From positions 1 to 57,861 of the IMG/VR virus record IMGVR_UViG_3300048996_000092: DNA of 57,861 nt; one strand, written 5' to 3'. This document shows, one piece after another, positions 2 to 28,641 of the stretch. Below the pieces are notes generated by a model that was given only the letters and a program-made list of their open reading frames with translations, did not search any database and was not told the origin of the DNA. The stretch is from a virus. Within the stretch, counting starts at the first letter, position 1, and each line of letters opens with the position of its first letter. The position numbers and the translations under genes were made by a program.

Positions 2-820
2 GCCGCCATTCCGCGTCCAAAGGATGGCGCTGCTGGTGTTGACGGGGTGGATGGCCGCGACGGTGTGGATGGCAAGTCGGTTTCTCTGGACGACGTTCGC
101 CCGCTCGTTGCTGAGGCGGTTGACGCGATTCCGCGGCCCAAGGACGGAGCTGACGGCAAGGACGGCGCAGATGGCCGTGACGGCCTTGACGGGAAGTCCG
201 TGTCACCTGAGGACATGCAGCGGCTGATTGCTACGGAAGTCAGCCGACTACCCGCCCCAAAGGATGGGGCGCCGGGCCTTGATGGCCGCGACGGTGTGGA
301 TGGTGTCAACGGAAAAGACGGCGCCAACGGCACGTCGGTAACTCTGCAGGAGGTGCGCGGCTTTCTGGAAGCGGAACTGGCGCGCTGGGAACTGGACATG
401 GAGCGCCGCGGCTTCGAAGTCATTCAGCGGGCCTTGGACCGAATCGAAAAGCCCAAGGATGGCGCGCCCGGCAAAGACGGCAAAGACGGCAGAGACGCGC
501 TGGATCTTGAACACTTCGACGTCGTCAAGAGCGAAGACGGCCGCACACTGACTTTCGTGCTAACGCGCGGCGATGATCGAGCCGAAAAGGCCGTCGTGCT
601 CGACAGCCCCGTTTACCGCGGAATCTGGAAGCCCGCTTCATACAAACGCGGCGACTGGGTGACGTTCGGCGGATCAATCTTTGCCGCGACACGTGACACC
701 GATTCCAAACCGGAGACCAACGACAGCTGGAAACTGTGCATCAAGCGCGGCCGTGATGGAAAAGACGCCACGCCGCGTGACCCGCAGGTACCGCGTCGCG
801 TCGTAGTCGGGGGGCGCTGA
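2..820 (+). CDS. Collagen-like virion protein, 5' end cut by the window
   Basis: The frame is open from base 2, so the start lies outside the window. The protein holds three or more Gly-X-Y blocks of the KDG/RDG/VDG type, separated by roughly 25-residue helical spacers that each begin GKSVS or GTSV, so the whole unit repeats. The last 90 residues leave the repeat and look like a small beta-rich module (YRGIWKPASYKRGDWV, then a Trp-rich stretch ending DSWKLCIKRG) of the kind seen in phage structural proteins with a carbohydrate-binding look. It sits directly before head-tail connector genes, where collagen-like head or neck decoration proteins occur in HK97-like phages. Virion location is inferred; it overlaps the next gene by one base (TGATG). 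Confidence 0.75.
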   Translation, partial: AAIPRPKDGAAGVDGVDGRDGVDGKSVSLDDVRPLVAEAVDAIPRPKDGADGKDGADGRDGLDGKSVSPEDMQRLIATEVSRLPAPKDGAPGLDGRDGVDGVNGKDGANGTSVTLQEVRGFLEAELARWELDMERRGFEVIQRALDRIEKPKDGAPGKDGKDGRDALDLEHFDVVKSEDGRTLTFVLTRGDDRAEKAVVLDSPVYRGIWKPASYKRGDWVTFGGSIFAATRDTDSKPETNDSWKLCIKRGRDGKDATPRDPQVPRRVVVGGR

Positions 821-1152
821 TGGTCATGCTCGTTGAGTTGGCACAAGTGAAGGCGCGTCTACGGTTCGACCACGAGGAGGAGGACGCGGATATTGAATTC
901 GCCATCAAGAGCGCGTCCGCGGCGGTTATGAACTATCTCAAGCTTGATCACGACTTCTACACGGATTCGTTCAATTCCTCGGGCGAAGTCTCAACCAATG
1001 TTCCGGAGGAAGTGGCCCAGGCCGTGATTACGCTCGTCGGCATTTGGAAGCGCGATCCAGCCGGAGCGGAAATGAGGGATTGGGAAATGGGCTACCTGCC
1101 GCGCCCGGTCATGGCAATCCTGTACCCGTTGCGCGATCCGGCGATGCAATGA
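820..1152 (+). CDS. Head-tail connector protein, HK97 gp6 family
   Basis: This 110-residue, mostly helical protein has the hallmarks of the gp6-like connector: an N-terminal LAQVKARLRFDHEEED segment, a helix with SASAAVMNYL, a middle VPEEVAQAVITLVG helix and a Pro-rich end (GYLPRPVMAILYPLRDP). In HK97-type phages gp6 forms a ring on the portal that starts the neck. The start overlaps the upstream stop, and a second in-frame ATG lies two codons on. It is followed by a small membrane protein and then the head closure gene. Confidence 0.8.
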   Translation: MVMLVELAQVKARLRFDHEEEDADIEFAIKSASAAVMNYLKLDHDFYTDSFNSSGEVSTNVPEEVAQAVITLVGIWKRDPAGAEMRDWEMGYLPRPVMAILYPLRDPAMQ

Positions 1153-1460
1153 ACGCCGCGTGCCTGGAAGTCATGGCGAGCATTGGTGTGATCGCCACCA
1201 TCATGACGTTCGTCGCGATCGCGGTGTACTTTGTGGACAAGTTCCAGACCGACGACAACGGCACTGGCGTCAAAGACATGCCGCGGGCACTCGGCGTTGC
1301 CAAACCGGGCGACGTAGTAATCCTCGAGGTTCCTGGCGCGGTGTCTGTCGAAGCGCACCAGCGCTACATGCAAGCCCTGGACGCCATGAACACCGGCGTC
1401 AAGTTTGTACTTCTGAGTGATGGCGTGCGCCTTGCGCGCGTGGGATCGGATGAGCCTTGA
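1149..1460 (+). CDS. Small membrane-anchored protein in the head-tail cluster
   Basis: The start ATG overlaps the upstream TGA. The 103-residue product has one clear membrane segment near residues 8-27 (MASIGVIATIMTFVAIAVYF), then a soluble tail of about 75 residues with a PGDVVILEVPG strand motif. No family is recognised. A membrane protein between the connector and head-closure genes is not a standard neck component; an inner-membrane role during infection or assembly is possible but unproven. Confidence 0.6.
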   Translation: MNAACLEVMASIGVIATIMTFVAIAVYFVDKFQTDDNGTGVKDMPRALGVAKPGDVVILEVPGAVSVEAHQRYMQALDAMNTGVKFVLLSDGVRLARVGSDEP

Positions 1461-1794
1461 CCCTGGCCGCCTGCGCCATCGCGTCACAATTCAAAGGCCC
1501 GTCACAGTTCAGAATGTCACCACCGGAGAACTCAGTACGTCCTGGGCGACCGTAGTCGCCAACATTGCAGCGGCCATCGAACCACTGAGTGTCCGCGAGT
1601 TCATCGCCGCGCAGGGAATGCAAAGTGAGATCACGGCAAGGATTGTCATTCGATATCGCGCCGGCCTCACGGCGGAAATGCGGATCGTTCACGGATCGAG
1701 GGTCTACAACCCGCAAGGCTGGCTGGCAGATGCAGACAGCGGGCTGGAGTACCTGACGGCGCCGTGCTCTGAGGGTGTGAACGACGGCCAATGA
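1450..1794 (+). CDS. Phage head closure / head-tail adaptor protein
   Basis: The 114-residue protein matches the head-tail joining family (Phage_head_tail, HK97 gp7 / SPP1 gp16 type): it opens with LDPGRLRHRVTIQRP, continues with a SWATVVANIAAAIEPL strand pair, the conserved ARIVIRYRAGL and MRIVHGSRVYNPQGW stretch, and is the usual length. This protein closes the head after packaging and joins the connector to the tail. The start overlaps the previous gene by 11 bases. In related phages the next genes would be gp10-like and DUF3168 tail completion genes; here those come 5 kb later, after the glycan cassette. Confidence 0.82.
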   Translation: MSLDPGRLRHRVTIQRPVTVQNVTTGELSTSWATVVANIAAAIEPLSVREFIAAQGMQSEITARIVIRYRAGLTAEMRIVHGSRVYNPQGWLADADSGLEYLTAPCSEGVNDGQ

Positions 1795-2897
1795 GCACGT
1801 TCGCGGTGCTCGGCACCGGCCCTTCCATGAGTCAGGGGCTAGCCGACCTCGTACGAGACAAGTGCCGCGTTGTTGCCGTCTCCGACTCATACAAGCTGGC
1901 GCCATGGGCGGACGCCTTGGTCAGTAACGACCGTGCGTGGTGGAAGCAGCATCCCGAAGCCATGAAGTTCGCCGGCAGGAAGTTCGCGGGCGCGAAGTTG
2001 AGCGGCACCGAATACCTGATGGCCACTGGCATCTATCGAGCTGGGTCCAACAGCGGCCTGCAAGGACTGCGCGTCGCGGAAATGCTGGGGGCGACCCGCA
2101 TTCTGTTGCTGGGCTTCGACATGCGCGGCTCGCACTTCTTTGGTGAACACCCCTCGCCCCTGCGAAACACCACAGCAAAACGGTTCGCCGCGCACATCGC
2201 GCAGTTCAAGGGATGGTACGGAACGAAGGTGATCAACTGCACGCCGGGGTCGGCCCTCACGGCTTTCCCCATGATGGACATTCGTGAGGCACTGAGCCTG
2301 AAGTCAGATTCGGCGGGAGGCAAACGCGCGGCTGAAACAAAGGCTGCGACTGCGCCGGTATGCCGCCCCTCTTCGACCGATTCGGCGCTGGTCTCAGAAA
2401 GACACGCGCGGCTGTATCGCGACTACTACGCGCAAAGACACATCGAGCCGCGCCCGAGTGGCTGGCTGGATCGGGTCGAGCAACTAGCATCGAGCCTGGA
2501 GGCGGCAAGCATCATTGACTACGGATGCGGCGCGGCCCGCGGCATATCGCGATTCTCCAGGTTCACCGTAGTTGATTACGATCCTGGACTCCCACAGTGC
2601 GCGGCCATTCCTCAGCCCGCGGACCTCGTGGTCAGCATTCACGCGCTTGAACACGTTGAGCCCAACTGCGTGGATACGGTGATCGACCACATGTTGGCGC
2701 TCGCCAGGAAAGCCGTGCTCATCACGGTTTCCTGTGAGCCATCAACCAAGAAATTGCCAGATGGTTCGCCATGGCATTGCTTTGTCCAAAGCGCGGACTG
2801 GTGGCGGCGCCGTCTTTCGTCCTTCGAACCGCAACCCGTATTGAAGGATCGCATTGGCGCGGAATACGCGGCGATCTACAGGCACAAACCACAATGA
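1791..2897 (+). CDS. Fused glycosyltransferase-like (N) and SAM methyltransferase (C) protein
   Basis: The 368-residue protein has two parts. Residues 1-165 open with FAVLGTGPSMSQG, contain VVAVSDSYKLAPWADALVSND and SGLQGLRVAEMLGATRILLLG, and end near residue 165; this resembles phage GT29/MptE-like (DUF115-like) sugar-transfer domains. Residues about 205-365 form a class I methyltransferase: SIIDYGCGAARG is motif I, and DLVVSIHALEHVEP is the segment after motif II. A polar linker joins the parts. The start overlaps the head-closure gene by four bases (ATGA). It is the first gene of the glycan cassette; the exact substrates are unknown. Confidence 0.72.
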   Translation: MSTFAVLGTGPSMSQGLADLVRDKCRVVAVSDSYKLAPWADALVSNDRAWWKQHPEAMKFAGRKFAGAKLSGTEYLMATGIYRAGSNSGLQGLRVAEMLGATRILLLGFDMRGSHFFGEHPSPLRNTTAKRFAAHIAQFKGWYGTKVINCTPGSALTAFPMMDIREALSLKSDSAGGKRAAETKAATAPVCRPSSTDSALVSERHARLYRDYYAQRHIEPRPSGWLDRVEQLASSLEAASIIDYGCGAARGISRFSRFTVVDYDPGLPQCAAIPQPADLVVSIHALEHVEPNCVDTVIDHMLALARKAVLITVSCEPSTKKLPDGSPWHCFVQSADWWRRRLSSFEPQPVLKDRIGAEYAAIYRHKPQ

Positions 2898-3883
2898 CGC
2901 AATTCAAGAACCGCACCGTGCTGGTCACCGGCGCGGGCGGCTCGATTGGCACTCACTTGTGCCGAATCATTGTCAGTCAGAACGCCCGTGAACTACGGCT
3001 GCTGAGTGTTAGCGAAAACGCGCTGTACAACGTCGAGCGCTCGTTGCGCCGCGAGTACCAGAAATACCGCGATACGAAGTTGGTGCCGATCCTGGGAAGC
3101 GCCTGCGACGATCAGCTGTTGCACGAATCCCTGGCAGACGTGGATGTGATCATTCACGCCGCGGCTCACAAGCATGTGCCGCTGTGTGAGGCCAATCCAT
3201 TTGAGGCGATCACCAACAACGTTGGCAGCGCGTGGACTCTCATGTGGGCGGCCTTCCGCGCTCGCGTGCCGCAGCTGTGCGTCATTTCAACCGACAAGGC
3301 GGTGAACGCGAAGTCTGTGATGGGCGCGACCAAGCGTCTGTCGGAGATCATGCTGCAGGACGTTCCGCGGGCTGACGTGTTCACTGACTGCTTCGTGGTC
3401 AGGTTCGGCAACGTCATGGACTCGGCGGGATCTGTACTGCCGCTGTGGCGCGAACAGTTAGCCGCGGGTGAGCCCATCACGCTGACGCATGAACTGTGCG
3501 AGCGTTATTTCATGTCCATCGAGCAGGCCGCCGGCTTGGTGTGTGACGTGGTCGCCCTTAAGCCACGTGGTGGCACATATGTGCTGGATATGGGCAAGCC
3601 GGTGAGCCTGAAGAGTCTCGCCGAGCAGATGCTGAAATCGGCGCGCAGTGCGATGCCAATTCAAATCATTGGCCTACGCCCAGGTGAAAAGCTGACCGAG
3701 GAATTGCACTTCGGTGGGGAGCTTCACCAAACCGCCGTTGCGAAGGTTTTCCGCGTTCAGGAGACCAACCATCGGCCGCGGGTTACGCGGGATGACATTG
3801 AAAACCTGCTGACGCTATCAGCGCTTCGAAGCCCGCAAGCATTGCCACTGCTGTGGCGTTTGATAGGTGGTCAGCATGGCTGA
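2894..3883 (+). CDS. Nucleotide-sugar 4,6-dehydratase, FlaA1/PseB/CapD-like
   Basis: The 329-residue protein is a short-chain dehydrogenase fold enzyme: GAGGSIG at residues 13-19 binds NAD(P), IIHAAAHKHVPLCE follows, and the active-site stretch STDKAVN...VMGATKR puts Met143 where other SDRs carry Tyr, before Lys147. That S/T-M-K arrangement is typical of the UDP-GlcNAc 4,6-dehydratase group (FlaA1, PseB, CapD). GLRPGEKLTEEL near the C terminus is also characteristic. The expected reaction is conversion of a UDP-HexNAc to its 4-keto-6-deoxy form, the first step to modified deoxy-sugars. ATG start overlaps the upstream TGA. No aminotransferase is encoded nearby, so the product may feed a host pathway. 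Confidence 0.85.
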   Translation: MTQFKNRTVLVTGAGGSIGTHLCRIIVSQNARELRLLSVSENALYNVERSLRREYQKYRDTKLVPILGSACDDQLLHESLADVDVIIHAAAHKHVPLCEANPFEAITNNVGSAWTLMWAAFRARVPQLCVISTDKAVNAKSVMGATKRLSEIMLQDVPRADVFTDCFVVRFGNVMDSAGSVLPLWREQLAAGEPITLTHELCERYFMSIEQAAGLVCDVVALKPRGGTYVLDMGKPVSLKSLAEQMLKSARSAMPIQIIGLRPGEKLTEELHFGGELHQTAVAKVFRVQETNHRPRVTRDDIENLLTLSALRSPQALPLLWRLIGGQHG

Positions 3884-4580
3884 GGCATTCAAGGTTGACC
3901 CGGCATGGACGGACAAGGATTCCAAGGTGGAGGAATTTCGGCAGCTGTACGAGACGCGCGAGTTCATGGATGCCTACGCGGCGCACACGGATATCAGATT
4001 GAAGGCCGACCCGAAGAGCGCCATCGGCCGTAGTGATGAGTGGGAATCTCACGGCGCGATGCAGTTGAAGTTTTTGAGACGCCGCGGCATGAAGCCATCG
4101 AGCAGGTTGCTGGACATAGGGTGTGGCCCTGGGCGCGCAGCGCGGCACTTGGTGCCGTACTTGGATAGCTGCAACTACATCGGCGTTGATATATCGGCGG
4201 CGTGCCTTGAGCACGCGAACGCCCTGGCCCGCGGGGAGGGGTGGGAGGACAAGTGGCCGACGTTCATTCGCAACGGCGACCTGGACATCGACGCGCCACC
4301 GGCATTTGACTTCATGTGGGCGCATTCCGTGTTCACGCATCTGCCCGCAGCGCAGATTGAAGTCATGGTTTCCAATGCGGCGCCGCGGTTGAAGAGCGAC
4401 GGGCAGCTGCTGTTCACGTACAAGCACAGCGATCAACCGGAACGGGTGGGGCTGAAGCAGTTCAAGTATCCGTTCGCCGTGTTCGAGGAGATCGCGATAC
4501 GCCACGGGCTACTGGCGACATTGTTGGATGTGCGTTGGCCGGCGAAGCAACGTACCGGCCTCATGGCGAAGCCGCTATGA
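3876..4580 (+). CDS. Class I SAM-dependent methyltransferase
   Basis: The 234-residue protein has motif I LLDIGCGPGRAARHL at about residues 78-92, an acidic end of strand 2 in YIGVDIS, and FDFMWAHSVFTHL as the post-motif segment common in sugar or small-molecule methyltransferases. The substrate is unknown; in this cassette a sugar O- or N-methyltransferase is likely. The chosen ATG overlaps the dehydratase by eight bases; a GTG nine bases earlier is possible. It is separate from the methyltransferase domain of the 1791-2897 gene, so the cassette has two. Confidence 0.8.
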   Translation: MAEAFKVDPAWTDKDSKVEEFRQLYETREFMDAYAAHTDIRLKADPKSAIGRSDEWESHGAMQLKFLRRRGMKPSSRLLDIGCGPGRAARHLVPYLDSCNYIGVDISAACLEHANALARGEGWEDKWPTFIRNGDLDIDAPPAFDFMWAHSVFTHLPAAQIEVMVSNAAPRLKSDGQLLFTYKHSDQPERVGLKQFKYPFAVFEEIAIRHGLLATLLDVRWPAKQRTGLMAKPL

Positions 4581-5329
4581 CACTGACCGATGTGACCCTG
4601 GTCGTGCCGTTCTATCGAAACGGAGCAATGCTGGCGCGTCAAATCGCAGAGTGGGAGTTGTATCCGCCGGGCGTTCAGGTCCTGGTCGTTGACGACGGAA
4701 GCCCAGACCCGGCGCGGCCCATCATTGAGCAACACGCGTCCGCCAGTCTGCGCGAGCGGTTGTCGCTGCTACGAATCAAAATCGACATTCCATGGAATCG
4801 CGAAGAGGCGCGCAACCTGGGGACCCTGCAAGCGCGCACAGACTGGGTGATTCACGTGGACATTGATCACGTGTTGCCGCGCGCCTCGGCGAGCGCGCTA
4901 TTTGAATTCCAACCAAAGCCGCGGCACTGGTATCGGTTTCCGCGGTGGCGAAACGGCAAGGCCGACGAGACACGGAGGAAGGACGCCATTCCAGACGACT
5001 GCGAGTTCGGCCGCATACACGAGCACGTTGACAGCTACCTGATAGGCGCGGACCTGTACGCGGAAGTGGGCGGTTACGACTTGCGATTTTCCGGGTGTCT
5101 CGGCGGCGGCAGTGACTTTCTGAAGCGCCTCTCCGCAATCTCACCGCCACAAATGATGCCGGACCCCGTGTGCCTGCACGTGTACACCCGCGGCGTAGTC
5201 AAGGACGCATCGGACTGGTGCTTGAGTCGCGATACAACGGAAGGCAAACGCCGCGCGCGCGCCAAGCGTCTGAGCGGACAGCCATACAAGAAGTGCGAAG
5301 TTCGGTCGGCATGGGAGCGTGTGCTTTGA
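4577..5329 (+). CDS. Family 2-type (GT-A) glycosyltransferase
   Basis: The 250-residue protein has the GT-A signature: TLVVPFYRNG at the N terminus, VLVVDDGSPD near residues 36-45 (nucleotide-binding Asp pair), the ARNLG helix, and a DxD-type metal site in VIHVDIDHVL (residues 91-100). The C-terminal half (GGYDLRFSGCLGGGSDFLKRL) matches the acceptor end of GT2 enzymes related to chondroitin-synthase-like transferases. It should move a sugar from a nucleotide donor in the cytoplasm. ATGA coupling to the methyltransferase upstream. Confidence 0.85.
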   Translation: MTLTDVTLVVPFYRNGAMLARQIAEWELYPPGVQVLVVDDGSPDPARPIIEQHASASLRERLSLLRIKIDIPWNREEARNLGTLQARTDWVIHVDIDHVLPRASASALFEFQPKPRHWYRFPRWRNGKADETRRKDAIPDDCEFGRIHEHVDSYLIGADLYAEVGGYDLRFSGCLGGGSDFLKRLSAISPPQMMPDPVCLHVYTRGVVKDASDWCLSRDTTEGKRRARAKRLSGQPYKKCEVRSAWERVL

Positions 5330-5979
5330 GTGAGTACCCGAAATGTCTTGGTGAGCATGAAACGATCCGCATGGCCAACACTGGTCGAAGTCTTTCGCGC
5401 CTGGGCGACGGCGAAATCAAGATTGCGTTCGGCCACGGGATTGGCCGCGAGCCACGTAATCGCAAACTCACGGAGGAGATTCGGTCGATTATTTTCAAGC
5501 CTGCGCGCGGCCTGTTGGTCGGAATTCCGACAATGGACCCGAATGGCTGTCGCTTCTGGAATTGGTCGCGGCACATTCAAAGATACGCCAACCTTCTCCC
5601 ATCAGACGTGCTGTTCTATTCCGCGTTCGTCGCGCGTCCCGACTGCGCGCAGTGGATCGACAACAAAGAGTACGTTGCCGGCGTCGCCGCGCTGTGGAAG
5701 GACAAGCGCGTCACCGTTGTCGCCGAAGCCAACGGCTCGATGATCAAGGCAGTGGAGTACGGCGCACGGGAGATCATTCACGTCGAATGCCCAGTTCGCG
5801 AGGCGTACGCGGTCATTGACCAGCTGGAGGCTGACGTTGTGAAGAGCAAGCCGGAAATCACCATCATGGCGGCCGGCGCAACGGCAACCTGTCTTGCTAA
5901 CCGTCTCCAGCGCCGCGGAATGCATGCGATGGACCTTGGCACCGGCGGCAAGTTCTTCCAACGCTGGCTAGTCTCGTGA
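5326..5979 (+). CDS. GT-D fold glycosyltransferase (DUF1792 type)
   Basis: The protein has the RLGDGEI motif (Asp-Gly-Glu near residues 28-30) that supplies the DxE site of the GT-D fold, then GIPTMDPNGCRFWNW and, near the C terminus, ITIMAAGATATCLANRLQRRG and MDLGTGG, the order expected for this family. I place the start at TTG 5326 because GGGAG lies eight bases before it and it overlaps the upstream TGA; an in-frame ATG at 5311 would add five residues. It would extend a glycan built by its neighbours. Confidence 0.78.
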   Translation: MSEYPKCLGEHETIRMANTGRSLSRLGDGEIKIAFGHGIGREPRNRKLTEEIRSIIFKPARGLLVGIPTMDPNGCRFWNWSRHIQRYANLLPSDVLFYSAFVARPDCAQWIDNKEYVAGVAALWKDKRVTVVAEANGSMIKAVEYGAREIIHVECPVREAYAVIDQLEADVVKSKPEITIMAAGATATCLANRLQRRGMHAMDLGTGGKFFQRWLVS

Positions 5980-6755
5980 ACTTTGTCGTTTGGATCTGGA
6001 AAGGCAATCGGAAGTACGAGGCGGAACACGTCAACCATTTGTATCGGCAGTTGGACCGCGTGTGCCCCGGTCGATTCACGCTGACATGCGTAACAGATGA
6101 CACCAGCGGGTTCCACAGCAAAATCCGCGTAGTTGAGACGCCGCCTGCAGCCCGCGCTCTGCGCTACCTGCTGACACCTGAGAAGGCCAACTTCCCCAGC
6201 TGCTATCCGCGGCTGTGGATGTTCTCTGAGGAGGCGCGACTGCTTGGCGAGCGAGTGATGCTCATCGACGTGGACTTGGTATTTACGGCGGACCCGAGCC
6301 CGTTGTGGCAACGACATGAAGAGTTCGTCGGATGGCGACCAATGCGAACCTGGGGGCGAGAAACCCGGTTTGGCGGTGGCATCTATCTGCTGACAACGGG
6401 CACTCGAACCGACGTGTGGACGTCCTTCAAGGGCGCAGAGTCAATCAAGCTGGCGCGCGCCGCCGGCCTTCGCGGCAGCGATCAAGCTTGGCTGAGCTAT
6501 TGCCTCGCTTCCAAAGAGGCGATGTGGCCGCGCAATTCAGGAATCTACAGCGTGCGCGACCTGACCCACGAGCTGAAACGCGCACGTGTCGTGAAGCGCA
6601 CTAAGCCGCCCCTGAGCCTGCCGGCTGACGCGCTGATTGTTCAGTTCAACGGCCCGGACAAACCCTGGCACATCGACGCGCATTCGCGTCACGAATGGTT
6701 ACGTACTCACTTCATTCAACCATCCAATGGCAGCGCAATACGTCAAGGGGCTTGA
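5976..6755 (+). CDS. Putative glycosyltransferase with DxD motif
   Basis: The 259-residue product begins with a GTG that overlaps the upstream TGA. It opens with a Rossmann-like NFVVWIWKGNRKY and has RVMLIDVDLVFTADPSPLW around residues 93-110, where Asp98-x-Asp100 is the metal and nucleotide-sugar site of GT-A enzymes; WLSYCL and WPRNSGIYS follow. I cannot fix the CAZy family; GT8-like or phage-specific are the likeliest. It is the last cassette gene and overlaps the gp10-like tail gene by 29 bases, tying the cassette into late translation. Confidence 0.68.
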   Translation: MNFVVWIWKGNRKYEAEHVNHLYRQLDRVCPGRFTLTCVTDDTSGFHSKIRVVETPPAARALRYLLTPEKANFPSCYPRLWMFSEEARLLGERVMLIDVDLVFTADPSPLWQRHEEFVGWRPMRTWGRETRFGGGIYLLTTGTRTDVWTSFKGAESIKLARAAGLRGSDQAWLSYCLASKEAMWPRNSGIYSVRDLTHELKRARVVKRTKPPLSLPADALIVQFNGPDKPWHIDAHSRHEWLRTHFIQPSNGSAIRQGA

Positions 6756-7215
6756 CGGAATACTGGCAACGCTGAAGGCGCTGCCACCGCACATTGTTTC
6801 AAAGGCCGGCGGTCCGGTACGCGGCGCGCTCCGAAAGGGCGCTGTTGTATTTCAGAAAGCCTACCAAGAGAACATCCGCGCCATCATTGAGGAGCCCAAC
6901 AAAGACGGCAGCACTCCGGACACGTCAGGCACGTTGGTCAAGTCAGTGATCATCAGCCGCGGCAAGTATCGCGCGGGCTTTCAGGGCGAGACGTTCAAGG
7001 TGCGAATCAAGCGCGGCGTAAAGGCGCCGAACGGCCAGAGCGTCAACAAATACGCCGGTGTTCTGGAGTTTGGCTATGAGGGGGTGCCGGCGAAGGCGCC
7101 GATGCGCAAAGCATACGAAGCAAACAAGGCCGCGGCGCTCGCGGTGATTGTCAGTGAAATGAAGAAGCGCACCGATGCAGCTGCGCGTAAGGCTCGCAAA
7201 CAGGGGTTCAAATGA
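6727..7215 (+). CDS. Tail completion protein, HK97 gp10 family
   Basis: This 162-residue, basic protein fits the HK97-gp10_like family: an N-terminal GLDGILATLKALPPHI helix, a KGAVVFQKAYQENIR helix, the VKSVIISRGKY strand pair, YAGVLEFGYEG and a C-terminal Lys/Arg-rich helix. The family helps finish the tail-to-head joint. The ATG at 6727 is chosen because conserved sequence begins there. It resumes the standard neck-tail gene order after the glycan cassette. Confidence 0.82.
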   Translation: MAAQYVKGLDGILATLKALPPHIVSKAGGPVRGALRKGAVVFQKAYQENIRAIIEEPNKDGSTPDTSGTLVKSVIISRGKYRAGFQGETFKVRIKRGVKAPNGQSVNKYAGVLEFGYEGVPAKAPMRKAYEANKAAALAVIVSEMKKRTDAAARKARKQGFK

Positions 7216-7586
7216 CGCCATCAATCTTTGCGCTTGTGGCGGCGTCACCCGCATGTGTTGCGCTGATCGGTACGCCGCCGCTGATGCGGTTCTACTCATT
7301 CGCCGAGGCTCAGCAGCCTACCGCGCGGCCATACGCGGTGTGGCAAATGGTCACGTCGGTGCCGGCCAACTACCTCGGCCAACTGCCAGACACCGATGAC
7401 GCCCGTGTGCAGGTTGACGTTTACGCGGACAGCCAGGCCACCGCCAACGCGCTGGCCATTGCAGTTCGCGATGCCATAGAGCCGCACGCTCACATGATCA
7501 ACGCGTCAGACCGCGCACGCGACCCGGTGACGCGCTCATACGGTTACCTGATGGAGTTTGAATTCTTCACGCCGCGCGACACCTGA
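7212..7586 (+). CDS. Tail completion / terminator protein, DUF3168
   Basis: The 124-residue protein opens TPSIFALVAASPACVALIG, followed by YAVWQMVTSVPANYL, and the beta-strand ARVQVDVYADSQATANALA, then IRD-type helix AVRDAI, which together mark the DUF3168 tail-terminator group (HK97 gp11/lambda gpU fold). It would cap the tail tube and bind the neck. ATGA overlap with the gp10-like gene. A rho-independent terminator follows directly. Confidence 0.82.
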   Translation: MTPSIFALVAASPACVALIGTPPLMRFYSFAEAQQPTARPYAVWQMVTSVPANYLGQLPDTDDARVQVDVYADSQATANALAIAVRDAIEPHAHMINASDRARDPVTRSYGYLMEFEFFTPRDT

Positions 7587-7668: not shown

Positions 7669-8172
7669 ATGGCCCTCAAGACCGCTCGAACGAGCTTGTA
7701 TTTTGTAGACCCCAATCCGGATAACACGTCAGGGGCAGCGGTCGTCGCGGTCGGATGCGTGACGAACCTAACCGGAATCGAAGCCGGCCGCGACCAGCTG
7801 GAGAACACGTGCCTTGAAGACAGCGCACGCAGTTACGAGGCAGGTCTCGCAACCCCCGGCGCCGCCACGTTCACGATCAACTTCGACCCACAGGACGAGT
7901 CGCACCGGCGCGTATACGAGCTGTGGCAGTCCGGCGAAACGCTGCAGTGGGCGGTCGGCCTCTCTGATGGCCCGGCATTTCCCGCCGCGTTGATTCCGCC
8001 AGAAATCGACACAGACGAAACGGGCTTCAACCTTCCTGATACGCGCAGCTGGATCACGTTTGAGGGCTACATCGCCAACGTGCCGCTGGATCTTGCGCTG
8101 AACGCGCTCGTCACGGCCAGCGTGACGCTGCAGATCAGCGACTTCCCTGTCGTTACGCCGAGGATTCCATGA
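7669..8172 (+). CDS. Major tail (tube) protein
   Basis: The 167-residue product is of tail-tube length and follows the tail terminator gene. It starts MALKTARTSLYFVDP, has alternating beta strands (ATFTINFDPQDESHRRVYELWQSGE, read as strand-helix) and the ending VTASVTLQISDFPVV typical of tube monomers with a beta-sandwich. GAGG lies upstream of the ATG. It polymerises around the tape measure. The gene stands alone between a terminator and the chaperone genes, consistent with high expression. Confidence 0.78.
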   Translation: MALKTARTSLYFVDPNPDNTSGAAVVAVGCVTNLTGIEAGRDQLENTCLEDSARSYEAGLATPGAATFTINFDPQDESHRRVYELWQSGETLQWAVGLSDGPAFPAALIPPEIDTDETGFNLPDTRSWITFEGYIANVPLDLALNALVTASVTLQISDFPVVTPRIP

Positions 8173-22291: not shown

Positions 22292-22738
22292 TCAGGTGCT
22301 CATGCGAAGGGTGCAGTAGGCAACGCGCAGGCGCCGCAGGACCACAGGGTCCGACAGCTGTAGTCGCGCAGCGATTTGCCTGTAGGTAAGTCCGTCTGAA
22401 ACGTGCAGCATCAGGACTTCGCGCTGTTCAGGAGGCAAGCGCTGCGTCGCCGCGCGCAGCGCGCCTTCAGTTGCTTGTCGATCCGCGTCTGACATCTGTT
22501 TACCAGCGAGCGCTGGTGTCTCATCACAAACATCCATCGCGAGCCTGAATAGACGCCCCTGTGGGTCCTGCACGCCGTCGTCGTCGTTGATCTGGCTCAG
22601 TCGCGCGAACACTTCGGCGGCCAATCGTTCGGTCTCTGAATCGGGGAATTGCGCCTCCGTCTCTTCTGGCGTGACGTGTGGTGGAAATATTGGTTCAAAT
22701 ATTCTGGTCATCCATCTGGGCAGCTTGAGAGTTGTCAT
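22292..22738 (-). CDS. RNA polymerase sigma-70 region 4-like protein
   Basis: The 148-residue protein ends in a sigma-70 region-4 helix-turn-helix: LPPEQREVLMLHVSDGLTYRQIAARLQLSD at about residues 98-127, read as an r4-type domain. The first 75 residues are acidic and lack an evident region 2, so it may be a truncated ECF-like factor or an r4-only regulator. It lies at the convergent end of the late operon, read toward it, under a separate-looking upstream region with two operator-like palindromes. A late-gene regulator is a reasonable guess. Confidence 0.78.
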   Translation of the reverse strand: MTTLKLPRWMTRIFEPIFPPHVTPEETEAQFPDSETERLAAEVFARLSQINDDDGVQDPQGRLFRLAMDVCDETPALAGKQMSDADRQATEGALRAATQRLPPEQREVLMLHVSDGLTYRQIAARLQLSDPVVLRRLRVAYCTLRMST

Positions 22739-22822
22739 GATTTTTCAAATGCCTCCGTGTGGTTGGGGCTTGCACCCATTGTCATTCTCAGCACGCGTAA
22801 ACCGGCCAGCAACTAGGTATAA

Positions 22823-22850
22823 CGCACAATGCGCGTAACGTGCAATGCAC
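22823..22850. promoter_or_regulatory. Two operator-like palindromes upstream of the sigma-like gene
   Basis: CGCACAATGCG (22823-22833) and GTGCAATGCAC (22840-22850) are two near-identical palindromic 11-mers with centres 17 bp apart. On the - strand a weak TTGCAC / TTATAC promoter with a 17-base spacer overlaps both. A dimeric regulator binding here could control the sigma-like gene. Confidence 0.5.
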
Positions 22851-22875
22851 GCAAAAGGATGTGTATGCTTCGCTC

Positions 22876-22998
22876 TGCTGTGCTCCGGTGTACCTGGATC
22901 GAATCTTTGGTTGCGGTGCGACTTTAGGAGGCACCAGACCACCTAGGGCAGTTAGGCAGACCGAGCCTAGATCGTAGAATGGGGGCCGGAGCACAGCA
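22876..22998. ncRNA. Possible structured RNA closed by a 13-bp stem
   Basis: TGCTGTGCTCCGG (22876-22888) is the exact reverse complement of CCGGAGCACAGCA (22986-22998). Inside lie two more helices, GGTGC/GCACC (22915-22919 with 22931-22935) and CTAGG/CCTAG (22943-22947 with 22966-22970), giving a three-way junction shape. The region is otherwise non-coding between 22739 and 23015. Either strand could carry it; neighbouring genes are on the - strand. Confidence 0.4.
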
Positions 22999-23015
22999 CT
23001 CCCTCTCGCCAATTT

Positions 23016-23273
23016 TCAATTCTGTCTTTCCGTCTCTAGCGCGTCGGCGTTCGCCGAGCGCCACCCGCGCTTTCGAAGGTATTGCGGCGCCACTGATTCA
23101 ATCTTTCCCGTCGGCATCAAGACTCGATACGTCTCCCGTTCCACTTGGTAGCCGCGAATAACCATGATCACGCGCGTCGCCAGCTCGTCCACAATCTCCA
23201 CTTCCCTGCCTTCAAATCTTCCGTAGGTCAGAAGAACAATCTCCCCAAGGCGGAAGCCGCGCTCACCATCCAT
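23016..23273 (-). CDS. Small SH3/KOW-like protein
   Basis: GAGGAG lies seven bases before ATG 23273, which overlaps the upstream gene by 11 bases. The 85-residue product has GEIVLLTYGRFEGREVEIVDE, resembling a KOW/SH3-type strand-turn-strand, followed by basic sequence. Function unknown. Confidence 0.55.
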   Translation of the reverse strand: MDGERGFRLGEIVLLTYGRFEGREVEIVDELATRVIMVIRGYQVERETYRVLMPTGKIESVAPQYLRKRGWRSANADALETERQN

Positions 23274-23505
23274 ATCCGTGCTCCTCAGTTTCTGACAACG
23301 ATCCATCTGCCATCACTTCACGCCAATACCAAAAATTACTCAGTCCGTGCGTGCCCCAATATTGGCCGCTGGTCACCTTCACCGTGCGTCCGTCAGGGTG
23401 CTGCACCACCTTGCCGATCGCCATCGAACCAGGCATCAGCTCTTCAGTGATGCGCCGCGCCTCTCGACGCATCCACTCCTCGTCCATCATGTCTTTCATT
23501 GTCAT
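23263..23505 (-). CDS. Small unknown protein
   Basis: The 80-residue product starts at an ATG overlapping the upstream TGA. It has an acidic N-terminal helix (DEEWMRREARRITEELM) and a beta part with GKVVQHPDGRTVKVTSGQYW, like small binding modules encoded in phage early regions. Not recognised. Confidence 0.55.
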   Translation of the reverse strand: MTMKDMMDEEWMRREARRITEELMPGSMAIGKVVQHPDGRTVKVTSGQYWGTHGLSNFWYWREVMADGSLSETEEHGYGW

Positions 23506-23783
23506 GGCCACACCACGTAGATGACTAACCCGTCCCCAGTCTCCGCGTCCTGCACATGCACTGCGTTAATGCGCGCAGCTCCTGAAATCAGGAATGCCAG
23601 GGACGTAGCGCCACCGGCGTGGGAACGCGCCAGCTCACGGATGTCGTCATTGTCGTATTTCGCCTTGAGGTGAATCGGGTCCGGGTCTTCGTTGCGCCAG
23701 ATGCGTACACGAAGGCCGTTGGCCACGAAGTCGGCGGTAGACTCAACGCACGGGAACGGCGGAACAGTCGAATCATTTGCCAT
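23502..23783 (-). CDS. Small unknown protein
   Basis: ATG 23783 is preceded by GGGGAGG. The 93-residue product contains RVRIWRNEDPDPIHLKA and ends GLVIYVVWP. No recognised family; part of the - strand run of coupled small genes. Confidence 0.5.
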   Translation of the reverse strand: MANDSTVPPFPCVESTADFVANGLRVRIWRNEDPDPIHLKAKYDNDDIRELARSHAGGATSLAFLISGAARINAVHVQDAETGDGLVIYVVWP

Positions 23784-23922
23784 GTTGCCTCCCCAGGCCG
23801 TACCCAAGAATTACCCCGAGACCACCAATGATAAATGCCATCACGAGCTGTGGACCTCCGTCGCTCGCCAGGATCGCGCACACGACAATGGCTATCAGGC
23901 AGCGCCAATCAGCTGTGCTCAT
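23773..23922 (-). CDS. Small two-helix membrane protein
   Basis: The 49-residue product, preceded by AGGAC, is mostly membrane: CLIAIVVCAILAS and LVMAFIIGGLGVILGYG. Function unknown. Confidence 0.55.
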   Translation of the reverse strand: MSTADWRCLIAIVVCAILASDGGPQLVMAFIIGGLGVILGYGLGRQHGK

Positions 23923-23933
23923 CTTGCGCGTCC

Positions 23934-24161
23934 TCACTGTGGCGTCCGCCGCCAAGGCGTGAACTCCACGACAACGGTCTCGGCAATTCCGCCTAGGCGA
24001 GAAATAAACTCTTCCGCCTCACGTTTCTTGCGAAACCCCTTTGCCTTGTCCTTGTCATCCGTCCACGCCGCGTGCCCTTTGGGCATTTCGTCTTGAACGT
24101 ACAGCGTCACGGGCCAATCTTTCAGGCGAATCGTCCACCCGCGCCAATCGGTGCGCCTCAT
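23934..24161 (-). CDS. Small unknown protein
   Basis: The 75-residue product begins MRRTDWRGWTIRLKDWPVTL and has a basic helix DKAKGFRKKREAEEFISRL. ATGA overlap with the metallophosphoesterase gene upstream. Unknown. Confidence 0.5.
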   Translation of the reverse strand: MRRTDWRGWTIRLKDWPVTLYVQDEMPKGHAAWTDDKDKAKGFRKKREAEEFISRLGGIAETVVVEFTPWRRTPQ

Positions 24162-24754
24162 CTCAGCTGATCCTCTCGGCTGTCATACCAAGCGAGCCCA
24201 TCCCCATAGCCGGCAGCGTACGCGTCGGCCGGTGACAGTGTTGCCCACGATCCTGGGTGCGGTTGGGGCGTAGCCAACAGCGTATCGAACAACACCGGGC
24301 GCAAATCGTGATGCTCAACTGACACGCAAATGTAGCGCGGGTCTTTCATCTTGGCGCTGTGCATGTGTCCGTGAATGTTCCGCGCGTACCTGCGGAACTG
24401 ATCTGGATGAACCGGCACGTGAGTCAGAATGCAGTGGCGATATTCCGCAGCGCCGTAGATCCTGCTGAAATATTGCTGATACACCGCCATCGGATATTGG
24501 TCATGGTTGCCCATCACCAGCTTTTTGACCCCGTGCAGGTAGCCAAGGACTTCGTGCCGCGCGCTTCCGCCAAAGTACACGTCGCCCAAGTGCCATACGG
24601 TGTCATTGGGCTTGACGGTCGCGTTCCAGCGCTCCACCAGCTCCCGGTCATGCTCTTCGATTGTTAAGAACCGCTGCCGCGCCAGCTCCCACTTGATGAT
24701 TCCATTGTGGTGGAAGTGCGTATCAGCGGTTGCAAAGACGCGGTTACAGCTCAT
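24158..24754 (-). CDS. Calcineurin-like metallophosphoesterase
   Basis: The 198-residue enzyme has the ordered metal motifs of the family: FATADTHFHH near the start (D-x-H), VWHLGDVYFGG (GD-type), KLVMGNHDQ (GNHD), and ILTHVPVHP plus NIHGHMH for the last His ligands. It hydrolyses phosphoesters, possibly nucleotides, RNA or cyclic signals; phage copies can act on host signals but the substrate cannot be read. The ATG overlaps the stop of the upstream gene, which fixes the start. Confidence 0.85.
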   Translation of the reverse strand: MSCNRVFATADTHFHHNGIIKWELARQRFLTIEEHDRELVERWNATVKPNDTVWHLGDVYFGGSARHEVLGYLHGVKKLVMGNHDQYPMAVYQQYFSRIYGAAEYRHCILTHVPVHPDQFRRYARNIHGHMHSAKMKDPRYICVSVEHHDLRPVLFDTLLATPQPHPGSWATLSPADAYAAGYGDGLAWYDSREDQLR

Positions 24755-24963
24755 GGAAAGGTTGGGCGCTTGCCCAGGCAACGTACGACGATGCTGTATT
24801 TCCCGCGACTGCTGTCATCGTCAATCAGGCCGATGCCGCCGATGACAATGATGTTGCCATTGTTGTGCTCCACGTAGCGGCGCACCGCTCTGTACAACTG
24901 ACTCACGGGATCGCGGCCGGCAAGCAAGTCGCGTTTCCTGGACGATCTGCGCTTCGCCTTCAT
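24751..24963 (-). CDS. Small basic protein
   Basis: The 70-residue product has a very basic N terminus (KAKRRSSRKRDLL) and a hydrophobic strand NIIVIGGIGLIDDD. GGGAGAG precedes ATG 24963. Not recognised. Confidence 0.5.
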   Translation of the reverse strand: MKAKRRSSRKRDLLAGRDPVSQLYRAVRRYVEHNNGNIIVIGGIGLIDDDSSRGKYSIVVRCLGKRPTFP

Positions 24964-25214
24964 TGGTCTCTCCCGGCTGCCAAAGCCATCGCACAACCCT
25001 TGCACGTTCTTTGGTCAGGCTCAGCAAGCCGATGACAGAAATCGCACAGGACAATTCCCTTCGCGGTGGCGCGGCGCCAGCTCGCTGCTGCCTTGTATAG
25101 CGACCGTGCCGTGACGGGCGCGAACGGGAACGGCGTGCGGCCCCACAGAATGTGCTCGCACAGGTATCCGTCCGCACCTGGAATGGCCGCACGCACGATT
25201 TGCGCCGGGGTCAT
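24960..25214 (-). CDS. Small Cys-rich protein
   Basis: The 84-residue product holds C-x2-C and C-x2-C pairs in VLCDFCHRLAEPDQRTCKGC, a likely zinc knuckle, after an N-terminal helix. ATGA overlap both sides. Confidence 0.55.
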   Translation of the reverse strand: MTPAQIVRAAIPGADGYLCEHILWGRTPFPFAPVTARSLYKAAASWRRATAKGIVLCDFCHRLAEPDQRTCKGCAMALAAGRDQ

Positions 25215-25381
25215 GGCGACTTCGAATGTTCGTTCCGCAACATGCCCAGCGCCAGCACGATGTTGAAACAGTCATCCAGACTGACCCCGGCGTACGCGGC
25301 CACGCCCTCGTAGAAAGCCAGCATTGGCACGGGCATTGTTACAACGATCTTGCTGCGCGCCTTCTTCTTTCGCTTGGCCAT
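25211..25381 (-). CDS. Small basic protein, possibly ribbon-helix-helix
   Basis: The 56-residue product starts with AKRKKKARSKIVVTMPVP followed by two helices (LAFYEGVAAYAG, LDDCFNIVLALGMLRN), an RHH-like layout. AAGGAGAG precedes the ATG. DNA-binding role is inferred. Confidence 0.5.
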   Translation of the reverse strand: MAKRKKKARSKIVVTMPVPMLAFYEGVAAYAGVSLDDCFNIVLALGMLRNEHSKSP

Positions 25382-25398
25382 GGCTCTCTCCTTTCGTG

Positions 25399-25812
25399 TC
25401 ACCGCAGTCGTGGATGAAGGACGTTGCGCACTATGTCTAACTCATACAGCCGGACGTCCGCGCGCATCGCCATGTATGCAAGGAATCGTTCAAGCATATC
25501 CGCAGTGCCGTTGCCGCCGGGACAGCAAAGACCGAAATCCGGCTCAAGTTCCAGCATGGTGCCGTTACGCGTCTTGCCGGCGACTTTTACCTTGCCGAGT
25601 CCCCGGTAGTATTCCCACAGGGCATCACATGCCACGGGCTGAACGCCGTGGGCTCGCGCCCATTGGTCAGCGAGCGTGTCCGCGCCGCGGGCATTTCCGT
25701 GAAGCAGGTGCGTGAAACGATACATTCCATGCAGATGATCCAGCGCCCTGTTCAGTGCCATATGTGCAACAAACTCGCGGCCACCGAAAACGCAAATCAT
25801 CCGGCGCGTCAT
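25399..25812 (-). CDS. SLOG-family protein, DUF2493 type
   Basis: The 137-residue protein opens MICVFGGREF and has THLLHGNARGADTLADQWARAHG, the DUF2493/YspA-type SLOG motif that binds nucleotides or small ligands. It ends with Leu/Met helices. ATG 25812 overlaps the upstream TGA. Its ligand in phage is unknown; SLOG proteins take part in signalling and defence. Confidence 0.78.
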   Translation of the reverse strand: MTRRMICVFGGREFVAHMALNRALDHLHGMYRFTHLLHGNARGADTLADQWARAHGVQPVACDALWEYYRGLGKVKVAGKTRNGTMLELEPDFGLCCPGGNGTADMLERFLAYMAMRADVRLYELDIVRNVLHPRLR

Positions 25813-26060
25813 ACCCAGCATTCCACGATGCACGGATCGTCATCCGGGAACCGGCCGATATTTGCGCAGGCTCCAGCCTCGATCAGCTTTCGGCGCATCT
25901 CAGCCAGACTTTCTGCGGTCATGATCTGCGTCGTAGCAAATTCCCCGTACCACACGCGGCAGAGAATGACGACGTTGGGGAAGTCGCGCGGCCGGTCATA
26001 GACCACCCACATGGGCGGGAAGTGGTTCTGAGCTTCCTCAAGTGTCGTTGGCGCGTTCAC
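25809..26060 (-). CDS. Small unknown protein
   Basis: The 83-residue product (GTG start overlapping the upstream TGA) contains FPNVVILCRVWYGEFATTQ and a helix AESLAEMRRKLIEAG. No family recognised; an in-frame coupled member of the - strand run. Confidence 0.5.
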   Translation of the reverse strand: MNAPTTLEEAQNHFPPMWVVYDRPRDFPNVVILCRVWYGEFATTQIMTAESLAEMRRKLIEAGACANIGRFPDDDPCIVECWV

Positions 26061-26284
26061 CAGTCCTGGTCCGGCGCCCGGTCAATGAACAGTGGCGGCG
26101 CCTCAATATTGGGCCAGTGCACCTCCGCGAAAAACCGGAAGTCCCCGATTGTGCCGTCCGTGGTGAAGCGCATCGCCCATTCTTCAGTGAGCGGCCATTC
26201 GCCACGCATGGAGTTGTCTTCGCTGTAGATCAACAGGCGCGGCCCCACGGTCGAGAACAGGCTACGCTGAATCTTGACGATCAT
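26057..26284 (-). CDS. Small unknown protein
   Basis: The 75-residue product opens IVKIQRSLFSTVGPRLLIY and has EEWAMRFTTDGTIGDFRFF. Start chosen from the ATGA overlap with the upstream gene. Not recognised. Confidence 0.5.
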   Translation of the reverse strand: MIVKIQRSLFSTVGPRLLIYSEDNSMRGEWPLTEEWAMRFTTDGTIGDFRFFAEVHWPNIEAPPLFIDRAPDQDW

Positions 26285-26466
26285 GGCGGCGGCTCCTTGG
26301 TTTGAATCACCTCGATAGTCCAGCCCCGTTCCGCGCAGAACGCTTTGATACGACGCACCGTCCAGCCCTTCATGTATTTGAGAATGGGCGCGCACAGTCC
26401 CTCACCAATGGCGGCGCAAAACAGTCGCCCGCCGTACGTTTTTCCGGTGATGCGGTAGAGGGTCAA
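26281..26466 (-). CDS. Small unknown protein with TTG start
   Basis: The best start is TTG 26466, which overlaps the upstream TGA; a GTG lies 30 bases earlier. The product (about 61 residues) includes TLYRITGKTYGGRLFCAAIG and a C-terminal helix. The start is uncertain. Confidence 0.4.
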   Translation of the reverse strand: MTLYRITGKTYGGRLFCAAIGEGLCAPILKYMKGWTVRRIKAFCAERGWTIEVIQTKEPPP

Positions 26467-26687
26467 GGCATTGCCTGGATGATCGCCAGGGTGCACGTCG
26501 CAGAACACGTGGCCGCGAACGGCTTGCCGATTTCCTTAGCCGCGACCTCTGCACCTGGGAGATACCAACACCACTGGTCGCACAGCGGGTTTGCGCACCA
26601 ACCCCAAATCCAATCCGGCGGAATATGCAGCCGATCGCGGCTCTCCGCTACTTCTTCCGCAGTCGGCGTAATTCGGTTACTGATCAT
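26463..26687 (-). CDS. Small Trp/Cys-rich protein
   Basis: The 74-residue product has WIWGWCANPLCDQWCWYLPG with several Cys and a second Cys pair (TCSATCTLA), pointing to zinc binding. AGGAG precedes the ATG. Confidence 0.55.
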   Translation of the reverse strand: MISNRITPTAEEVAESRDRLHIPPDWIWGWCANPLCDQWCWYLPGAEVAAKEIGKPFAATCSATCTLAIIQAMP

Positions 26688-27070
26688 TTCAACTCCTGGA
26701 GTCGCGCGATTTCCTCTGCACGCTCGTTTGCAAGGCCCTGCCAGAAGTTACGCGAATCCTCCATTGCCACGGCCCATTTCTTCAGATCCCTGACGAGGTC
26801 GGCCGCATCGTGATGACTCCATAACGTATCAGGCGGCGGGTCGCCCTTGACGGCATTGACTACATCCGTCAACACCTTGAACTGCCGCGCACACACGGTT
26901 CGGATGTTCTCGTAATCCTCAAGTGAGAACACCAACGCCGTCCATGTGTCCGCCATTGATATGGCGCGCGGCTGCTTACCCTGCCCATTGCTTTGACCAG
27001 TCGTCCAGTAGTCGCGAGCGCGGCGCGCGAACGACAGTTGGTCATGAAGCGTCACGTCGGTTGGTTTCAT
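26684..27070 (-). CDS. Unknown 128-residue helical protein
   Basis: The product is largely helical (LHDQLSFARRARDYW, LVFSLEDYENIRTV, AAD-LVRDLKKWAVA). ATGA coupling to the gene downstream. No family recognised. Confidence 0.5.
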   Translation of the reverse strand: MKPTDVTLHDQLSFARRARDYWTTGQSNGQGKQPRAISMADTWTALVFSLEDYENIRTVCARQFKVLTDVVNAVKGDPPPDTLWSHHDAADLVRDLKKWAVAMEDSRNFWQGLANERAEEIARLQELK

Positions 27071-27094
27071 TGCTATGCCCTTCCATGGTGGTTG

Positions 27095-27400
27095 CTAGTG
27101 GGCGCTCTTCCGTATGGCTTCGATCATGTCGCCAGACGCGATATTGGCTGCCTGGGTTCGCGCGAGGGCGGGAATCGCTTCCTCCATAGTCTTAAACGGG
27201 GTCTGGCGGGTTTCATAGTGAAACTTCTCGCTAAGGCACACTCTGCACCGGCGGTTTTTTGGGTCCGCGGCAACCATGCTTTCGAAGCCAATGCGCGTGT
27301 CTTCTTCCGCCTTGGCCGGCGGCAGCACCGCGTCGTCAAACGCGGCCGCGATCATGCAGTGCCGTTGCTCGCAAAGGCATTGGCAAAGCCACACAGTCAC
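27095..27400 (-). CDS. Small Cys-rich protein
   Basis: The 101-residue product (GTG start, GTGA overlap) has CQCLCEQRHC near the start and RRCRVCLSEKFHYETRQTPF in the middle, so two possible zinc sites. Unknown. Confidence 0.5.
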   Translation of the reverse strand: MTVWLCQCLCEQRHCMIAAAFDDAVLPPAKAEEDTRIGFESMVAADPKNRRCRVCLSEKFHYETRQTPFKTMEEAIPALARTQAANIASGDMIEAIRKSAH

Positions 27401-27678
27401 GACAGCGCTTCCTGTATCAGCGCACGCTCGGCGCCTTCGACGCGCGGTAGCAATGCCTGCAGCGCCTCCTCGTATCGCTCATACCGACCTTGCAAGTAAC
27501 CGGAGTTGAATGCCAACGTCGCGTCTAGTCGCGGCAAATGCATGATCGTGTGGCGCATGCGACCCAGGATTTTCTTGGCCTCGTATTCCCACTGGTCCAC
27601 CTGAGTTTCGAGGGCGACGATGCGCGCGCGGCGCTCGTTGGCGATTGCTTGCCAATCTGGGCTGGAGTTGTCGGTCAT
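27397..27678 (-). CDS. Coiled-coil protein
   Basis: The 93-residue product is helical with an ALETQVDQWEYEAKKILG segment and acidic/basic periodicity. ATGA overlap with the upstream gene. Unknown. Confidence 0.5.
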   Translation of the reverse strand: MTDNSSPDWQAIANERRARIVALETQVDQWEYEAKKILGRMRHTIMHLPRLDATLAFNSGYLQGRYERYEEALQALLPRVEGAERALIQEALS

Positions 27679-28142
27679 GGATCGAACACCTGGAGACGTT
27701 CGCGCACCGCGAGGTCATAGAACTGATCCTCGTTGAAAACCAAAGACGGTATAAACGGCGGCGAGTACCACAACTTGACGCCACACTGCGCGCACTTGAT
27801 GTTTCTTGCAGCGCCGCCGCGTGGACCGGGGTGAAATTCAAAACAGCCACAGAGTGGACACGAGCCGCGCTTGTTCAGAAAATCCGGAAAAGTTCTTATC
27901 CTGTACGTGTCCAACGCAGCTTGAGCCGCCTGTCTCTTGGTCAGCCCCGCTGGATCTTCCTCCGTCGAGCCTGGGATGTAGCAGTGGCACCGCCGCTCTT
28001 GGTGCGCAACAGATCCCAAGACAAGCCGGCACATGCATTCCCAATGAAGCGGGTCGCCGTTGGCCATGTACCGGATGGCGTCATCAGCCGCGATCAGTTC
28101 ATCGCAGCAAATGCACACTGGAATGGAAACTTTATCCAGCAT
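27675..28142 (-). CDS. Zinc-finger-like protein
   Basis: The 155-residue product has Cys-rich blocks in VCICCDELIA, RRCHCYIPG, SCPLCGCFEFH and IKCAQCGVKLWY, the last two a C4 zinc ribbon. The ATG at 28142 overlaps the upstream gene by 11 bases; ribosome site is weak. Function unknown. Confidence 0.6.
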   Translation of the reverse strand: MLDKVSIPVCICCDELIAADDAIRYMANGDPLHWECMCRLVLGSVAHQERRCHCYIPGSTEEDPAGLTKRQAAQAALDTYRIRTFPDFLNKRGSCPLCGCFEFHPGPRGGAARNIKCAQCGVKLWYSPPFIPSLVFNEDQFYDLAVRERLQVFDP

Positions 28143-28368
28143 CTGGCGTAACCAGTGCAACGTCTTCTGCCAGTACAAACCGCACAAGACGAATGGACTT
28201 GCCGGACCGCCGGGCCTGCAGGCGCAGTTGCTGAATGATGTCCTCCCGCTCGATCTTATCGCGGCGAACGGAGACCATTGGAATGCAGCCGGCGGGCACA
28301 ATGGCTTGCTTCAACCCGATTTCGCCGCTACCCAACTCGTCCTCACCAATCCACGCGTAAAGGTTCAT
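28132..28368 (-). CDS. Small unknown protein
   Basis: AGGAGG lies just before ATG 28368. The 78-residue product has GEIGLKQAIVPAGCIPM and a basic helix REDIIQQLRLQARRSGK. No family recognised. Confidence 0.5.
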   Translation of the reverse strand: MNLYAWIGEDELGSGEIGLKQAIVPAGCIPMVSVRRDKIEREDIIQQLRLQARRSGKSIRLVRFVLAEDVALVTPDAG

Positions 28369-28383
28369 CAGTTGCCTCCTGGG

Positions 28384-28641
28384 TTAGTCGACGCGCCAGC
28401 CCGCGTCCAGCATCTCGTTAACACTCTCGAAATTCTGCTTCGGTAGTGATCTCAGAACTTCTTCCCAGCCGCCGCCGCTCGGCAGTCGATAGGTATTGCA
28501 CAGGTAAACGGTGGTCATGCTGCTGACGTGAAGGAAGCCGCACTGCAAGTCGCGGCCAGTGCTGTTCTTCATAGGCAACAGCGGCCATCGCGGCCATGAT
28601 GCGGGGCGGCCAATGTCCTCTATTTCTTGCTCCCTAGTCAC
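28384..28641 (-). CDS. Small unknown protein
   Basis: The 85-residue product starts at GTG 28641, downstream of AGGAC, and contains REQEIEDIGRPASWPRW and LPKQNFESVNEMLDAGW. The upstream gene overlaps it by eight bases. Start uncertain. Confidence 0.45.
   Translation of the reverse strand: MTREQEIEDIGRPASWPRWPLLPMKNSTGRDLQCGFLHVSSMTTVYLCNTYRLPSGGGWEEVLRSLPKQNFESVNEMLDAGWRVD

Follow-up and report, generated by a model that had tools for sequence, protein, structure and literature searches.

Genes at the locus

The window analysed here is the whole 57,861 nt of IMG/VR record IMGVR_UViG_3300048996_000092, a fragment that opens within a collagen-like gene; the portal, protease and capsid genes lie outside it. 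Six intact genes, labelled A to F in order, lie exactly between the head closure protein (HCP) and a gp10-like tail completion protein. The features of the region are as follows.

2..820, plus strand, collagen-like protein (Gly-X-Y, KDG repeats) with a C-terminal CBM5/12-like domain, truncated at the window start; candidate acceptor (PF01391 24.4 bits, just under cut-off; the CBM5/12 likeness is read from the sequence, with no profile match)
820..1152, plus strand, head-tail adaptor Ad1, flank (PF05135 4.3e-8, phrog_40 7.5e-15)
1450..1794, plus strand, head closure protein Hc1 (HCP), left flank of the cassette (PF05521 2.9e-28, phrog_25)
1791..2897, plus strand, A: sialyltransferase-like domain (PmgO/D3 orf7 family) fused to a SAM methyltransferase (phrog_4603, phrog_24759)
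2894..3883, plus strand, B: soluble UDP-GlcNAc 4,6-dehydratase of PglF/WbpM type (Polysacc_synt_2 PF02719 5e-88)
3876..4580, plus strand, C: SAM methyltransferase, sugar-O-methyltransferase-like (Methyltransf_12 PF08242 5e-16)
4577..5329, plus strand, D: GT2 glycosyltransferase with a DID motif (PF00535 2e-10)
5311..5979, plus strand, E: GT-D fold glycosyltransferase, DUF1792 (PF08759 1.9e-16)
5976..6755, plus strand, F: GT-A/GT8-like glycosyltransferase (phrog_1962 4.8e-7, fold match, invariant DxD)
6727..7215, plus strand, HK97 gp10-like tail completion/neck protein, right flank (phrog_5 3.9e-11; PF04883 score just below cut-off)
7212..7586, plus strand, tail terminator, flank (PF11367 5e-16)
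7669..8172, plus strand, major tail protein; candidate acceptor (phrog_158 2.7e-27)

The preliminary description of this stretch had placed six glycan genes at 1791-6755 between head closure and the gp10-like gene, overlapping their neighbours and read in the late direction. Pfam and phrog searches bear out the gene limits, the order and the annotation. All six genes are on the plus strand, the late direction, and each overlaps its downstream neighbour: the overlap is 4 bp (ATGA or GTGA) at A/B, C/D and E/F and 8 to 29 bp at the rest; the start codons that fit these overlaps are at 1791, 2894, 3876, 4577, 5311 and 5976. The overlaps would tie translation of the cassette to that of HCP and gp10, and the late co-expression that had been proposed is supported by position. 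GC content is even across the region (59-62%), so there is no compositional sign of recent foreign insertion. No segment of A-F reaches transmembrane hydropathy (maximum KD19 1.39) and all six proteins are soluble, which argues for enzymes that work in the cytoplasm, the site of virion assembly.

The N-terminal domain of A (residues 8-171) matches the sialyltransferase-like family phrog_4603 at 3e-31, and its model has pLDDT above 90 in most blocks. The C-terminal methyltransferase matches phrog_24759 at 6e-14 and PF13489 with only 19 bits, under the cut-off of 27. A fold search with the whole fusion gave no significant match, the Cst-I sialyltransferase coming only at rank 35 (E 0.1), because the methyltransferase half is poorly modelled. 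The phrog_4603 family had no match in six bacterial genomes, and a literature search on the function of PmgO and these sialyltransferase-like proteins gave nothing relevant.

B carries the active-site motif STDKA...MGATK, with both the TDK and the MxxxK present, and its best solved relative is Campylobacter jejuni WlaL/PglF (5bju, 8e-58, 200 bits over 286 aligned residues), against 126 bits for CapE and 113 bits for the UDP-GlcNAc C6 dehydratase 2gn4. By its sequence B probably belongs to the retaining PglF/WbpM class, nearer to PglF than to PseB or CapE. The cassette has no enzyme for reducing or aminating the 4-keto sugar.

The solved relatives of C are weak, among them a D-glucose O-methyltransferase (6uv6, 1.5e-5). 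E falls within the GT-D family, with 61 bits to PF08759 where the cut-off is 27, and its nearest solved relative is dGT1 (4pfx, 4e-14). F has no Pfam match above cut-off, the GT8 profile PF01501 standing below it at E 0.3. Its predicted model (pLDDT 85) matches the folds of LgtC (7e-10), GlyE and glycogenin, and the DxD residues D98 and D100 are invariant in an alignment of its relatives.

Two other parts of the window deserve mention. An integrase at 46937-48202 lies close to a tRNA-Ser at 49449-49538, and the record probably represents a prophage that continues into host sequence past the tRNA. From 22300 to 34000, over 12 kb, there is no long ORF and the GC skew is reversed; this part probably consists of small early genes on the minus strand.

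The insertion site

We collected the loci of 80 IMG/VR relatives by a search with HCP. In most of them the site is empty: HCP is followed by a gp10-sized gap of about 470-840 bp and then by the tail terminator. Glycan genes stand beside HCP in 15 of the 80, and none of the 16 prophage relatives in named bacterial genomes has a cassette gene at the site. A comparison of two of the loci, L016 and L023, shows a clean insertion of about 1.7 kb exactly between HCP and gp10. The claim that the genes break a normally continuous order therefore stands, since 16 of 16 prophage relatives and most IMG/VR relatives have no cassette gene there.

The collagen-like gene just upstream of the head-tail adaptor has relatives in 24 of the 70 HCP loci with enough upstream sequence. 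These are present at 12 of the 13 loci that carry A or F, the exception being D3, versus 12 of 57 others, though the others include one locus (L013) that carries cassette D and C. The association is confounded by kinship. We considered the collagen-like protein as an obligate acceptor of the glycan and rejected this, since it is present in 11 loci in which no cassette gene was found and absent in D3; it stays a candidate.

Related cassettes in uncultured viruses

The nearest relatives of the cassette are reshuffled versions of it. One locus has the order HCP-A-D-C-F-gp10 (L101), and two have HCP-D-sulfotransferase-C-F-A-gp10 (L014 and L093); in other cassettes there is also a GDPD protein or a methyltransferase of FkbM or CmcI-like type. 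The sulfotransferase-like protein of the close relative L014 (2020-2754) hints at sulfated glycans. Elsewhere two A-family genes flank the tail terminator of a single phage (L079, 10349-10876 and 13974-14498), which suggests duplication within the block.

Scans of viral sequences with the single proteins B or F gave no matches; scans based on alignments of each did. The F-family scan gave 280 viral loci. A head-tail marker lies within 5 kb in 43 of the 78 loci newly fetched from it, and in 19 of the 30 whose flanks are full. Among the loci collected, 34 non-redundant lineages have at least two cassette families within 5 kb of head-tail genes, a count from which near-duplicates were removed and which, being partly selected by the F query, is not a frequency. 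Many lineages have the A, D, E and F families together. In the B-family scan the order B..D..E..F (dehydratase, GT2, GT-D, GT8) is found in the window and in eight other lineages, between which B is 42-73% identical. Several of these sets adjoin terminase or major head genes, while the surroundings of some B-containing contigs were not identified. One set lies between the terminase large subunit and a 760-aa protein (L245), another precedes the terminase (L246), and a related set precedes the major head protein (L231).

Two of these cassettes have, between B and D, a short homologue of UDP-glucose/GDP-mannose dehydrogenase that comprises just the N-terminal and central domains (L245:8960-9748 and L246:1148-1951). 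A third B-D-E-F cassette holds an HNH/NUMOD4 homing-type endonuclease (L096:6067-6561), a possible means of cassette mobility.

Relatives of F also occur in 50 of 754 sampled bacterial genomes. We considered whether these too are phage cassettes and rejected the idea: the 16 places examined had no head-tail genes, so the bacterial relatives are mostly cellular.

The search of phage databases and gene neighbourhoods proposed in the preliminary description thus cuts both ways. The site is normally empty, but the set is not unique, and the statement that no standard phage module combines such genes at this position has to be given up. In the collected loci at least 34 non-redundant lineages, Tetraselmis viridis viruses S20 and SI1 included, have a related cassette in the head-neck block, and Corndog has a comparable group of genes (PMC4351075).

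What the cassette modifies

We believe the six genes probably form a virion-glycosylation cassette of the head operon, one that makes a methylated 6-deoxy-HexNAc glycan in the cytoplasm and places it on a virion protein. Late in infection B would convert UDP-GlcNAc to UDP-4-keto-6-deoxy-GlcNAc, which host enzymes may complete or which may be used directly. The four glycosyltransferase domains (the N-terminal part of A, D, E and F) would then work in the cytoplasm, adding sugars one by one to a virion protein until a short glycan is formed, which the two methyltransferases (C and the C-terminal part of A) would cap. The sugar coat would alter what binds the particle, and reshuffling of the cassette would alter the coat. 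The methylated deoxy-sugar route proposed earlier is supported in the form of a methylated 6-deoxy sugar; the path from UDP-GlcNAc through a 6-deoxy HexNAc to O-methylation is the one that the enzyme families suggest. The likeliest acceptor is a particle protein that is both abundant and exposed, namely the major capsid protein, the major tail protein or the collagen-like protein of the head.

The main alternative is that the genes alter the surface of the host cell, either late in infection or in lysogens, for example to block re-adsorption of progeny or rivals to lysing cells. O-antigen conversion is the best-known role of phage glycosyltransferases, clusters for surface polysaccharides include members of the GT2 and dehydratase families, the phage is temperate judging by the integrase near the tRNA-Ser, and linkage to late genes fits a surface change at lysis too. 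However, the cassette lacks any membrane protein, flippase, polymerase, phosphoglycosyl transferase or oligosaccharyltransferase. Lysogenic conversion genes usually lie beside the integrase, and these lie in the late head operon instead. The module is also found in the head or packaging regions of unrelated phages. We consider host-surface modification unlikely and favour the virion as the target because of the lack of membrane enzymes, the late head-operon position and the recurrence near head genes of unrelated phages. That related, reshuffled sets occupy the same part of many uncultured viruses makes it most likely that the virus decorates its own particle, and does so with an uncommon sugar.

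It is also conceivable that this is an ordinary moron island, unrelated sugar genes gathered at a permissive spot with no common function. The relatives do vary in content (sulfotransferase, FkbM, CmcI-like methyltransferases, GDPD, HNH endonuclease), and distant relatives of F lie on bacterial chromosomes. An accidental collection should nevertheless be judged improbable against the co-occurrence of four of its families across many lineages, an order of four genes kept at the identities given above, and genes that are all intact and overlapping. That the cassette glycosylates hypermodified phage DNA, as in T4 or the TET-linked phage clusters, is a very remote prospect: methyltransferases and glycosyltransferases occur in DNA hypermodification clusters too and some cassettes lie beside terminase, but the window and 19 cassette-bearing records, many of them fragments, had no Tet_JBP match (a control gave none either), and thymidylate-synthase-like and C5-methylase matches were found in 2 and 5 of these 20 records respectively, none of them in the window.

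Virion glycosylation as the function of the cassette leads to a broader idea, which we put forward only tentatively. The cassette may be one form of a modular glycan-serotype locus widespread in uncultured phages, with a conserved core of dehydratase, GT2, GT-D, GT8 and sialyltransferase-like genes that is reshuffled, varied with methyl- and sulfotransferases, and carried in the head-neck or packaging operon. Each lineage could in this way have a virion sugar coat of its own, and collagen-like head proteins may carry it.

To our knowledge virion glycosylation has been demonstrated in few phages only, mostly mycobacteriophages. If our reading is correct, sugar-coated virions would be a frequent thing in environmental phages that infect other hosts; their coat would consist of 6-deoxy, methylated and sometimes perhaps sulfated sugars and be exchanged through gene shuffling. 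This would bear on adsorption, particle stability and phage recognition, and it would explain sugar genes in viral metagenomes that are usually filed under auxiliary metabolism. If the broader idea is also correct, phages would have in this locus an equivalent of the surface-antigen loci of bacteria, one that cultured phages hardly ever show.

Comparison with known systems

B shares the STDKA...MGxTK motif with C. jejuni WlaL/PglF but, unlike PglF and WbpM, it lacks a membrane domain and has neither an aminotransferase nor an acetyltransferase partner close by. The relative of E, dGT1, works in the Fap1 adhesin pathway, where it transfers glucose to a glycan attached to a protein (PMC5063993); unlike E it is bacterial and fused to a GT-A domain. 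The cassette does not resemble gtrABC-type O-antigen conversion, since A-F have no TM-like segment such as a flippase, a multi-pass glycosyltransferase or a membrane-anchored GT2 would show.

P1 PmgO and D3 orf7 belong to the same family as A, the one cassette family found in those two phages, and D3 orf7 lies between the major capsid gene and the head-tail connector. These and P1 pmgP and pmgQ are single glycosyltransferase-like genes, whereas the window holds a pathway; pmgO, pmgP and pmgQ were scored non-essential (PMC10695390).

Corndog has an O-methyltransferase and three glycosyltransferases between portal and protease (PMC4351075), and glycosylation of the capsid and tail tube is reported for Che8, Corndog and Myrna in the part of PMC12363180 that cites Freeman 2023. 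A literature search on tail-tube glycosylation in other phages gave nothing relevant. Like gp35-38 of Corndog and cluster O (PMC4351075), the window has a putative O-methyltransferase and several glycosyltransferases within the head gene block. Several such genes inside a virion structural operon are a feature of the Corndog/Che8 type, and the window has them. The slots differ, portal/protease in Corndog and HCP/gp10-like here, and no 4,6-dehydratase is named for the Corndog or cluster O genes, whereas the window has B. We detected no sequence kinship to the mycobacteriophage glycosyltransferases: mycobacteriophages are absent from the matches to B-F (E up to 1e-5) and from the A matches listed. 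Groups of glycosyltransferases and methyltransferases in phage head blocks were known already, and the present cassette appears to be a variant with no detectable homology to the Corndog type.

The closest cultured phages are S20 and SI1. Among 50,697 cultured-phage records the GT2/GT-D/GT8 set occurs only in these two, in the head block. D and E match nothing else there, F matches only these and EBPR siphovirus 3, B matches a few unannotated records and C none. In S20 (NC_020840) the stretch from the capsid region to head closure holds A, GT-D, a methyltransferase, GT2, FkbM and F. No homologue of B or C was found in S20 or SI1, and we found no functional work on their cassette in the literature. 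Their slot is upstream of Hc1, and A and its methyltransferase are separate genes in them; like the window, both have A, GT-D, methyltransferase, GT2 and GT8-like genes in the head block in the late direction, and their deposited genomes are a starting point toward an isolate.
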